Of a stretch of DNA of 64,000 nt, positions 3,414 to 6,281 are shown in pieces. Origin of the DNA: Balneolaceae bacterium (GTDB lineage Bacteria; Bacteroidota; Rhodothermia; Balneolales; Balneolaceae); NCBI GenBank assembly GCA_017795005.1, contig CP051242.1, positions 1,946,976 to 2,010,975 of the forward strand, given 5' to 3'. Position 1 is the stretch's first letter; every line of letters begins with the position of its first letter. A program made the translations under genes and the position numbers. The notes beneath the pieces are model-generated. The model made no database searches, was not told where the DNA came from, and was given only the letters and a program-made list of their open reading frames with translations.

Positions 3414-3659
3414 ATGAAAAATTTTACTGACAAAGAATACCATCCGGTAATCGAGGATTATATTACTGATTATGTTGATGATACCCTGGAAACTGGCGAG
3501 AGAGACGCCTTCGAGGAGGTGCTTGTTCATGATGATGATCTCCGTGAACTTGCATACTCTGCGAAGGAGGGTAAAAGACTTATTCAGCAACTTGGTTTTG
3601 TGAAAGCGGATGAGACATTTAAGAAAAATATGCTTTCACGCTTAAAAGAGCTGAGTTAA
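3414..3659 (+). CDS. Small acidic protein downstream of the ECF sigma gene
   Basis: This 81-residue cytoplasmic protein is rich in Asp and Glu (HPVIEDYITDYVDDTLETGE) with a helical C-terminal half ending in MLSRLKELS. It has no signal peptide, membrane segment or Cys/His zinc site. The position directly after an ECF sigma gene, and the pattern YVDDTLETGERDAFEEVLVHDDDL, resemble the N-terminal part of anti-sigma factors, which often read (D/E)YLDG.L...E...E..L..D..L. I infer a soluble anti-sigma-like partner. It could equally be an unrelated small protein. Its stop overlaps the convergent gene at 3656 by 4 bp. Confidence 0.6.
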   Translation: MKNFTDKEYHPVIEDYITDYVDDTLETGERDAFEEVLVHDDDLRELAYSAKEGKRLIQQLGFVKADETFKKNMLSRLKELS

Positions 3660-4984
3660 TCTTCCATAAGTTCTTTAAAGACGTTTAAATGTTTTTCGGT
3701 TAGCTTTAAAATTGCTTCTCCGGCAGAAAGTATATTACTGATGTACTGATCTTCTATATTTTCTTTGTTAAACTCCATACCCCAAATGTTGGAGTCGGAG
3801 ATAATCTCACCTTCATGATTCCCAGATTTTACCTTAGAGCCAAATAATTTAAGAAAAGACGCTTCTTTAAATATTGCACAAGTAAGGTGTTCTCCCTGTA
3901 AGCTTAATGGATCCAGGCCAAAACCTAAATAAAAGAGTTTTAATCCTCCTTCATTCATCTCTTCAAAGTATTTCTTAAAAATAGGATTAGATTCGTATTC
4001 ATATCGCTGATTTTCGGTGCCAGTGATCTCTTCAATTCCTTCAATTTCCTCAGCATATTCTCTCAAGATATTATATAAGATATTTGTATCAGCAGTAAAA
4101 TTGTTTCCCTCATTGATAGGTTGAAATTCACCTGCAGGTACCACATGTCTGGTACTATCTGCATAGCCTTGATCGGCAGAACGGACATGCATTAGAAACC
4201 TGAAATCACCTTCTTTAGTTTGAATAAGAGTTAGCGTGCTAACGCCTCCAAGTAATACTGTTTTTGAAAAATTTCCTTCTTTTTTTAATGCATTTAATAT
4301 TTCGACTCTGAATTTTTGTGAGGATTTTGATGGAAGTTTAACGAGGTTAGTAGGTAAACCTGAAGAATGTAATTTATTAGCTGTTTTTATTGAATCAGTA
4401 AATTCTAGCTCAGCAGTTTTTCCATAATCAATTTTGTTGAAGTATGAATTCGGTTCTTTTGAAATGCTCAACGTAACGGATTTATTACCAATATCAACTC
4501 CCATCAGTCTGTAATGCCTGTTATTAAAAAAGACTGGTGGATTTATCAGCTCTTCTATTACCGAATGATATTCTGTAAAACGCTTTGTCTCTGTATGATA
4601 GGGAAGTATATCTGTTCTTGGCTGAATTATGGGGATTATTTCATCTACTAATTCTGATTTGACATACTCAATGGGAATTGGATGTTCCGGAATCCAATCC
4701 TTTCTTACGAGTAAAGGTATTTCTTCCTTGTTTTGTTCAAATGAATCATCTTTAAGAATTAAGTGATTGAACTCAAACGCTTTTTGCGATATTAACTTTC
4801 TTCGTTTGCTAATCCATTTTTTATTGAGATCGATGAAATCTTTTTGTGAGTCTGTTACATCCGAACTTTTTATTCCTTTTTTCTTAAATACTGTCACAAG
4901 CCAAATAATAAAAGTAGCCAATACGGTTCCGATTATTGTAGTAAGAAGAGGAGAGTTCTCTATAACTTCGATGAAATCTTGCAT
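3656..4984 (-). CDS. Membrane-anchored protein with a Nudix-like motif
   Basis: I cannot name this 442-residue protein. One transmembrane helix (residues about 13-33) is followed by a basic stretch, so the rest is probably cytoplasmic. Near residues 284-316 the sequence VPAGEFQP followed by REYAEEIEG resembles a Nudix box (G-x5-E-x7-REUxEExGU) with G285 and the REYAEE core at 308-313. The spacing is about 14 residues longer than canonical, and one extra residue precedes the final Gly. Its ATG overlaps the stop of the upstream membrane-protein gene by 1 bp. It is the third gene of the SatD-like operon. A role in hydrolysing or sensing a nucleotide signal is inference. Confidence 0.55.
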   Translation of the reverse strand: MQDFIEVIENSPLLTTIIGTVLATFIIWLVTVFKKKGIKSSDVTDSQKDFIDLNKKWISKRRKLISQKAFEFNHLILKDDSFEQNKEEIPLLVRKDWIPEHPIPIEYVKSELVDEIIPIIQPRTDILPYHTETKRFTEYHSVIEELINPPVFFNNRHYRLMGVDIGNKSVTLSISKEPNSYFNKIDYGKTAELEFTDSIKTANKLHSSGLPTNLVKLPSKSSQKFRVEILNALKKEGNFSKTVLLGGVSTLTLIQTKEGDFRFLMHVRSADQGYADSTRHVVPAGEFQPINEGNNFTADTNILYNILREYAEEIEGIEEITGTENQRYEYESNPIFKKYFEEMNEGGLKLFYLGFGLDPLSLQGEHLTCAIFKEASFLKLFGSKVKSGNHEGEIISDSNIWGMEFNKENIEDQYISNILSAGEAILKLTEKHLNVFKELMED

Positions 4985-5319
4985 TATATACCTTTTATAG
5001 TTGCTACATATCCTATGGCCGCCAGAATAGAAATAAGGTTACCTATCAGGAAGTAATCATTACTCACCTTGTTTTCTTCACTCTTGATTCGGGTACCAAT
5101 CTTTAATGCCCCAAATGCGGTAATTACGTGCGGGTAGCCTGCCATTAACCCAACAATTAGAACCAGCCTTTCCAGCATACCTTTTAGCACATCCTTTACA
5201 TTGAGGGCAGGATCATGATCTTCTTTCACACTCTGAATCATCCGGCTATTCAGTACATAAAAAATCACATGCACAACTGACTCCATGAGTACATATAAAA
5301 GAATAAATCTCGGGTCCAT
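4984..5319 (-). CDS. Small three-helix membrane protein in the SatD-like operon
   Basis: The 111-residue protein has three hydrophobic segments: about residues 5-20 (FILLYVLMESVVHVIF), 50-70 (RLVLIVGLMAGYPHVITAF) and 88-109 (YFLIGNLISILAAIGYVA). A charged loop containing KEDHDPALNVKDVLK lies between the first two. No enzyme motif is visible and I do not recognise the family. It overlaps its upstream and downstream neighbours by 1 bp each (TAATG junctions), so the three products are very likely made together in similar amounts. SatD-family genes are often found next to small membrane proteins. A membrane effector or receptor is possible but unproven. Confidence 0.6.
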   Translation of the reverse strand: MDPRFILLYVLMESVVHVIFYVLNSRMIQSVKEDHDPALNVKDVLKGMLERLVLIVGLMAGYPHVITAFGALKIGTRIKSEENKVSNDYFLIGNLISILAAIGYVATIKGI

Positions 5320-5963
5320 TACGATTTTTGGATAAAGGTTAGCACAACTTCTTTTAAAAGAGAATACTCTTTAATCATCAAAGTTTTTCGACGTTTCCAT
5401 ATTTGATCACGGTTTTTCCCATGTATTTCGCCTACTTCACTATTATTTTCATTTTCAATCATGTCGATGATCAGAGCGTAGTCTTCTTTTTTCCAGTTCA
5501 TGATAAGACTGTCGGTTACTTCCAACAAACGATTTAGTTGATCAGAACCCGTCTCGTCTTTCAGACTTATTTTAAAACGCTTTCGGTCTCTTTTTTTGAT
5601 GTTAAGCATCTTACGAGCGGTAGTTAAACCTTCTCCCAGCATCTCATAGGCAATGTCCGGGTTTATTTCTGTATCAATTTCTCCGGTGTGTAACACATAA
5701 TGCAGTTTAAAATCGAGTTCCCGGCGCAAGCACTCTTCTTCAATAAAAAAGATGATAGCAATGCCTGTTTCTACAGAATCCAGGACGGCCTGGAAATCAT
5801 CGCCTAGCGTAATGGTAAGAGGAGAGAGGATATTGTTTCCGAAGGTATCATTCACGCTTTCCACAAGCGACTTAAACTCAGTCGTGAGTTTCCCGGATTC
5901 ATAGCTTGAACTGGAAACCACATCTCCCATTAATATCGGGTATATGTTTGTATTTGAAGACAT
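5319..5963 (-). CDS. SatD-family-like protein
   Basis: I start at ATG 5963 (MSSNTNIYPILMGD); a TTG at 5978 lies inside the -7 promoter element. The 214-residue product resembles the SatD family, named from a Streptococcus acid-tolerance operon. Two conserved spots stand out: MGDVVSSS with D14 and LGDDFQAVL with D55. These two Asp, 41 residues apart, each end a predicted beta-strand, as in the metal-binding pair of class III nucleotidyl cyclases; that comparison is mine. The C-terminus (about 175-200, GEIHGKNRDQIWKRRKTLM) looks like a helix-turn-helix. It heads a three-gene operon and could regulate the palindrome in its own promoter. Confidence 0.65.
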   Translation of the reverse strand: MSSNTNIYPILMGDVVSSSSYESGKLTTEFKSLVESVNDTFGNNILSPLTITLGDDFQAVLDSVETGIAIIFFIEEECLRRELDFKLHYVLHTGEIDTEINPDIAYEMLGEGLTTARKMLNIKKRDRKRFKISLKDETGSDQLNRLLEVTDSLIMNWKKEDYALIIDMIENENNSEVGEIHGKNRDQIWKRRKTLMIKEYSLLKEVVLTFIQKS

Positions 5964-5968
5964 GGTCA

Positions 5969-6007
5969 ATTGTATCAAAAATAATGATACAATGCAATAT
6001 GTTTCAA
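5969..6007 (-). promoter_or_regulatory. SatD-operon promoter covered by a perfect palindrome
   Basis: Reading leftward, TTG at 6007-6005 and TATTTTTG at 5983-5976 are separated by 21 bp, matching the Bacteroidota promoter pattern. A perfect inverted repeat ATTGTATCA-N7-TGATACAAT spans 5969-5993 and covers the -7 element fully. A start about 7 bp downstream would leave a leader of only a few bases before ATG 5963. The palindrome is very likely an operator. The helix-turn-helix of the SatD-like protein is one candidate ligand. Confidence 0.7.
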
Positions 6008-6100
6008 TAATAATGAATCAATTAACATTGTTTCAGTTACTTTGACATTGCGAAAGACTAAAGATCTTCGCTTGTGTACTTAAACAACTCCCAAGTGAAA

Positions 6101-6281
6101 AGTCCTCCTTTGAAGGAGGTGGCATTTGATCGAATAGATCAAATGACGGAGGATGTGAAGGCGTCCGGAATTGGCAAGGTCTAGTCTTCATTCCGAAGCA
6201 CAGCTTCGGAATGCCTTCCTGAGGCTCTGCCTTATTGGAACCGGAGCTTGCTACAATACATCACGCAGCAGAGCTACGTGA
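6101..6281. repeat. Cluster of intergenic hairpin repeats
   Basis: The 5964-6314 gap holds the operon promoter and a set of hairpins. CCTCCTT-tg-AAGGAGG lies at 6104-6119 and CATTTGATC-gaata-GATCAAATG at 6123-6145, followed by ACGGAGGATG. CATTCCGAAGC-aca-GCTTCGGAATG lies at 6189-6213, and an imperfect stem with TCACG/CGTGA ends at 6261-6281. The first two form a module with the same layout as the elements at 45428-45569. No gene is visible here. The hairpins probably are dispersed non-coding repeats. Confidence 0.75.

Follow-up and report, generated by a model that had tools for sequence, protein, structure and literature searches.

A phased tandem array of putative operators upstream of satD points to probable autorepression by a cyclase-fold, helix-turn-helix protein

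We have found that an exact palindrome just upstream of satD in a Balneolaceae genome belongs to a tandem array of palindromes, spaced 29 bp apart, that extends up to the satD start codon, and is the unit nearest that codon. The main interest exceeds the palindrome itself: a phased, co-varying array is the mark of a protein family that has hardly been studied and that occurs in both bacteria and archaea. On the sequence evidence, SatD is quite probably a local autorepressor that would act through this phased tandem operator array on its own leaderless operon, binding and repression being what we infer. The SatD family thereby gains a testable job (autorepressor) and a predicted fold (a cyclase domain as a sensor on a helix-turn-helix).

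Background

SatD is annotated in many genomes, and there is almost nothing on its function in the literature searched, which offers the name and an association with acid stress and contains no operator, fold assignment or DNA-binding role. The SatD of the sat operon of Streptococcus mutans is in the same Pfam family (PF16264) as the protein studied here. Streptococcus pyogenes carries satD as an accessory gene, reported to be essential where present (PMC11323703). The DUF2652 cyclase-like proteins (PMC4886424) were considered and found to be a different family, and that paper makes no mention of SatD.

The stretch of DNA that was analysed, referred to here as the window, is 64,000 nt long and comes from a genome that, among named organisms, is closest to Gracilimonas, Balneola and Balneolaceae MAGs.

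Methods

Arrays were scanned for as three tandem palindromes with free spacing and a free period of 19-36 bp, and dinucleotide shuffles were used as the control. The family sample consisted of 90 non-redundant SatD genes, mostly from a Bacteroidota-wide sample in which SatD was present in 78 of 394 genomes. SatD homologues of other phyla, carried on plasmids, were also examined. Promoter elements were counted in 231 upstream regions from the window's genome (loci L134-L153 and the window).

Results

A first-pass annotation of the window had described a perfect 9-7-9 palindrome at 5969-5993. The palindrome is real and exact (ATTGTATCA-AAAATAA-TGATACAAT, 0 mismatches). It is the sole match in the window at three or fewer mismatches, with 0.11 expected by chance, and it is unique in the whole genome (3.75 Mb), where the runner-up matches carry three mismatches. 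We refer to it as O1, a putative operator with its core, TGTATCA-N7-TGATACA, at 5971-5991. A second putative operator, O2 (TGATTCA-N7-TGAAACA, 6000-6020), lies exactly 29 bp from O1, and a third, O3 (6029-6049), is degenerate and has a single clear half-site, TGAAACA (6029-6035), 29 bp from O2; no strand is assigned to any of the three. The scan returned these units (5971-5991, 6000-6020 and 6029-6049) at a period of 29 with a score of 36, against a shuffle maximum of 34 and with 0 of 600 shuffles reaching it. When restricted to periods of 19-26, the scan found nothing because the true period is 28-29. The palindrome had been presented as a lone operator over the promoter of the SatD operon; an operator over that promoter is retained, but it is one unit of an array of two to five copies.

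Throughout the genome, the pattern TGWWTCA-N7-TGAWWCA is matched with 0 mismatches only by O1, O2 and one lone site at genome position 690039. This search revealed no second array, and a regulon of array sites was sought in the genome and not found. The lack of a second array in the genome therefore argues for local feedback rather than a regulon. The lone perfect site is situated between a gene and a tRNA-like sequence. Upstream of the array, the intergenic, hairpin-bearing DNA at 6090-6260 has segments with copies, 75-96% identical, at about seven further genomic sites, and these repeats constitute a small dispersed repeat family.

The satD gene (5319-5963, minus strand) starts with the ATG at 5961-5963, and orthologues begin at the same ATG. 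A proposed -10 element, TACAAT (5969-5974, minus strand), is located 5 nt before this ATG in the outer arm of O1, and a proposed -35-like element, TTGCAT (5992-5997, minus strand), lies 17 bp further upstream, within the linker that separates O1 from O2. The arrangement TTGnnT-N17-TACAAT-N5-ATG is kept in 8/8 close relatives, the window included, and most other SatD classes of the Balneolales have a TAnnnT hexamer exactly 5 nt before the ATG. In the genome promoter sample, TAnnnT peaks 5 and 6 nt before the ATG (14 and 21 cases, against about 7 elsewhere); promoter 6-mer counts in a genome sample were uninformative, and position relative to the ATG was informative. This enrichment also suggests that transcripts of this Balneolaceae genome commonly lack a leader.

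The -7 box of the promoter had previously been assigned to TATTTTTG (5976-5983, minus strand). The box is indeed there, within the O1 spacer, but a promoter role is not borne out, as TAnnTTTG is present in only 4/8 close relatives, compared with 8/8 for TACAAT, and has no positional peak before the ATG in the genome sample. For the same two reasons, the promoter was not classed with the Bacteroidota -33/-7 promoters, for which TAnnTTTG would be conserved. This pattern of conservation makes TACAAT more likely to be the -10 element than TATTTTTG, which is probably not a promoter element. Since TACAAT lies 5 nt before the ATG, the predicted transcript would be leaderless, and not almost leaderless as was proposed earlier. 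The half-site overlapping the -10 element reads TGATACA, whereas most other units read TGAAACA. Such a departure is expected if the half-site doubles as operator and promoter, and where the array lies further from the ATG (L013, L014 and L042) the half-site reads TGAAAC again. One stretch of DNA appears to serve as both operator and promoter.

A search for the palindrome upstream of orthologous operons had been put forward as a check on its role. The search was run, and it found conservation and brought no refutation: the upstream DNA of SatD orthologues shows repeated TGTTTCA-N7-TGAAACA units. In the family sample, the region upstream of satD outscored each of its 40 shuffles in 65 of 90 cases, and the period was 27-29 in 64 of these 65, though 19-36 was allowed. 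Among controls, which were other intergenic upstream regions of the same loci, only 6 of 101 beat their shuffles, the periods were flat, and four of the six positives were divergent neighbours on the SatD intergenic DNA. The array thus belongs to SatD genes and is not a feature of AT-rich DNA. The remaining SatD regions (25/90) fail to beat all shuffles, and some of them are cut, mis-started or two-copy. At loci L107:3696, L098, L123 and L101, the array is located in the DNA that separates satD from a divergent gene, and both genes may be under its control.

Plasmid-borne satD genes of other phyla also have arrays with 28-bp spacing in front of them: the score is 39 in Vibrio lentus (shuffle maximum 32), 35 in Agrobacterium (maximum 33) and 37 in Sphingomonas parapaucimobilis (maximum 32). 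In the haloarchaea Halorientalis and Haloplanus, several copies of the GTTCGCC/GGCGAAC type are visible 28 bp apart, and the three-copy scores barely exceed the shuffle maxima, at 32 versus 31 in the first, for which the scan chose another period, and 31 versus 30 in the second. Two-copy versions were recognized by eye in Natronosalvus, Pseudoalteromonas and Salinivibrio, for which the three-copy test was not clearly passed. No array was seen with the Segatella, Sphingomonas insulae, Arthrobacter and Fusobacterium plasmid SatD homologues, and tblastn returned no SatD in phage records. As sites are spaced alike in archaea and bacteria, the spacing seems to be dictated by the protein rather than by the transcription machinery.

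The window protein belongs to SatD family PF16264, which it matches with 66.3 bits against a Pfam curated cut-off of 29. As the proposed autorepressor, it joins a predicted cyclase-fold domain (residues 1-152) to a C-terminal helix-turn-helix. The AlphaFold2 model (pLDDT 95.3) places helices at 159-170, 174-181 and 185-194, and the helix at about 185-194 is likely the recognition helix. The C-terminal helix-turn-helix, which had been suspected from the window alone, is supported by the predicted fold and by helix-turn-helix profile matches, among them one to sigma-28 (1rp3, E 0.0014). Models of sigma-70 r4 and of helix-turn-helix domains match up to about half of SatD homologues, and the SatD proteins examined all end in a helix-turn-helix. 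PADLOC gave no match for the window SatD and only weak, mostly helix-turn-helix-type matches for its homologues.

The N-terminal domain, compared over residues 1-149, resembles the class III nucleotidyl cyclase Ma1120 of Mycobacterium avium (4wp8; Z 12.5, 3.1 A over 135 residues), and Foldseek matched it to 4wp9 with an E of 1.4e-5. GTP cyclohydrolase III and Cmr2 are likewise similar (Z 10.7). Four residues, D14, G54, D55 and W157, are invariant in 69 SatD homologues. D14 and D55 align with the two metal-binding Asp residues of Ma1120 in a profile alignment whose E of 0.06 is weak alone. That alignment ends before the region of the transition-state Asn and Arg and of the substrate-specifying residues, and the VNxAAR motif, judged by eye, is not conserved. 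SatD is thus like the class III nucleotidyl cyclases in fold and in the two Asp residues, but it shares only 13% identity with Ma1120 and is fused to a helix-turn-helix. From these models, SatD is predicted to combine a helix-turn-helix with the fold of class III nucleotidyl cyclases, and it may serve as an enzyme or as a nucleotide sensor.

Half-sites share one register across 61 proteins, with conserved letters at positions 4-10 from the dyad, and the letters vary by lineage (TGTTTCA, TGTTGCA, TATCGG, TATAAG, TTAACC, TTCAAC and others). The more two recognition helices differ, the more their arrays differ (r 0.702), and a partial Mantel correlation of 0.365 (0/2000 permutations) remains once the N-terminal domain is accounted for. 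The distance between N-terminal domains likewise retains a partial correlation with that between arrays (0.231), and part of the co-variation is shared descent. A mutual-information scan found recognition-helix columns to be over-represented, with most of the top-ranked columns outside the helix-turn-helix.

Two positions of the helix go with particular bases. At residue 184, the start of the recognition helix (N184 in the window), Asp occurs with G and Asn or Thr with T at position 6 in 18/18 proteins of the class to which the window SatD belongs, and residue and base each change three times on the tree. At the equivalent of residue 190 (K190 in the window), Glu occurs with C at position 7, and Gln with A (8) or T (2) and never with C (20/20). 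Glu or Asp with C and Gln or Asn with A are classical residue-base contacts, and the two rules are the contacts expected from these pairings. Independent changes number 1-2 for the E/Q rule and 2-3 for the D/N rule, too few for a sign test, and the co-variation is therefore strong but not proof. At the level of sequence, the half-site letters follow the SatD recognition helix, and SatD is likely self-regulating. The self-regulation of the operon by SatD that had been suggested earlier is accordingly kept as likely, since orthologues have kept the site upstream of them and its letters vary together with the helix. The two helix positions that predict two bases provide a readable operator code, which is testable with homologues from very distant organisms.

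The gene coupled to satD encodes a 111-aa membrane protein (4984-5319, minus strand), and its start overlaps the satD stop by 1 nt. The third gene in the run (3656-4984, minus strand) encodes a 442-aa protein with an N-terminal membrane anchor and an unmatched family; searches of Pfam, NCBIfam, PHROG and PADLOC gave no match, and among the loci read the gene occurs only in the window species and its sister (L006). In 66 of 72 loci, the gene after satD encodes a membrane protein, as recognized by length and motif, and a 4-nt overlap is seen in 31. These partners are of three kinds, namely DUF3307 proteins, a kind of about 245 aa, and a short kind of 106-115 aa that includes the window protein. 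All share a C-terminal domain (profile comparisons, E 1e-6, 4e-7 and 3e-26) that has no Pfam entry; in the long kinds it carries GxxER ... AK ... EYxLIGTLLS and falls outside the Pfam DUF3307 model.

DUF3307 (PF11750) is carried by many SatD partners, and the ER...AK...EYxLIG domain in its C-terminal extension is also present in the 111-aa protein. The 111-aa protein is without the PF11750 domain itself (no Pfam match) and is not counted as a DUF3307 member; from sequence comparison, it would represent a minimal form of the C-terminal domain of DUF3307-type SatD partners. In 19 relatives, E13, E50, R51, K73, T76, R77, G93, N94 and S97 are invariant. The model of the 111-aa protein is all-helical (pLDDT 83.5), comparison of its fold with the PDB gave no match with an E below 0.001, and no DNA-binding domain was seen.

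Discussion

In the mechanism that we propose, the palindrome would be the start-proximal operator, O1, of a phased array of SatD sites. Each palindrome would be occupied by SatD, probably in dimeric form, with every half-site receiving one recognition helix; adjacent dimers would lie 28-29 bp apart and may bind cooperatively. Together they would cover both elements of the leaderless promoter, the -10 within O1 and the -35 region in the O1-O2 linker, so that RNA polymerase would be excluded and both satD and the coupled small membrane protein would be off. A ligand of the cyclase fold, either a nucleotide or a product that SatD makes, would release or tighten the complex and thereby set the level. 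Two features of an autoregulatory repressor are present, namely a DNA-binding domain in SatD and a conserved putative operator over its own promoter. The promoter overlap means that repression is suggested, not proven.

Tandem-operator autoregulated repressors include phage lambda CI/Cro and plasmid and toxin-antitoxin repressors. SatD is like these in its helix-turn-helix, its palindromic sites over its own promoter, its coupled genes and its lineage-specific operator letters. It is unlike them in having half-sites about 13-16 bp apart, a 28-29 bp unit over bacteria and archaea, and a cyclase-fold sensor.

SatD could instead bind the array and mainly activate, or switch between activation and repression with its ligand. 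O2 and O3 are located where an activator could bind, and the SatD helix-turn-helix resembles sigma-70 region 4; however, O1 covers the -10 hexamer itself, and in many lineages the array extends to 5-8 nt from the ATG. Both positions favour blocking, and we regard activation as unlikely. It is very unlikely that some other regulator reads the array and that SatD is merely a regulated neighbour. SatD binding is inferred, which leaves room for such a regulator, but the array tracks SatD homologues across phyla and its letters change with the SatD recognition-helix residues. Moreover, the sole other conserved gene encodes the membrane protein, in which no DNA-binding domain was seen, and no second array exists in the genome. 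The inverted repeats are able to fold as RNA and might be hairpins of an attenuator or of translation control, but this seems highly implausible, because the conserved -10 element 5 nt before the ATG puts the array upstream of the transcript start, and a period that stays at 28-29 bp while the letters change indicates a DNA-bound protein. A chance palindrome, for which the AT-richness of the region might speak, is already contradicted by the shuffle results for the array and by its conservation in orthologues and beyond.

Besides local autorepression by SatD, we consider a wider and more tentative reading. SatD and its membrane partner might form a guard or toxin-antitoxin-like module that is widespread among bacteria and archaea, in which the cyclase fold would read or make a nucleotide signal, SatD would restrain the partner via the array (and perhaps the signal too), and loss of the signal or of SatD would free the partner. 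We hold this to be possible but doubtful. The reported essentiality of satD where present in S. pyogenes (PMC11323703) suggests that cells losing SatD may come to harm, perhaps by way of the partner, and an essential accessory gene would suit one that holds a harmful partner in check.

In Panoptes (mCpol plus 2TM-beta), a cyclase-like enzyme and a membrane protein form a pair (PMC12657230). Panoptes and the SatD pair are alike in combining a small palm/cyclase-fold protein with a small membrane protein. They differ in that the SatD partner is predicted to be all-helical (pLDDT 83.5) and not a beta-barrel effector, and in that SatD carries a helix-turn-helix. Lacking a 2TM-beta effector, the SatD pair was not assigned to Panoptes, which may serve as a works-like lead only.

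In Sphingomonas insulae (L156:3566-4555), the satD-DUF3307 pair lies beside a Pycsar effector family gene and a gene for an E2-associated cysteine-rich protein, a satD neighbourhood that is defence-like.
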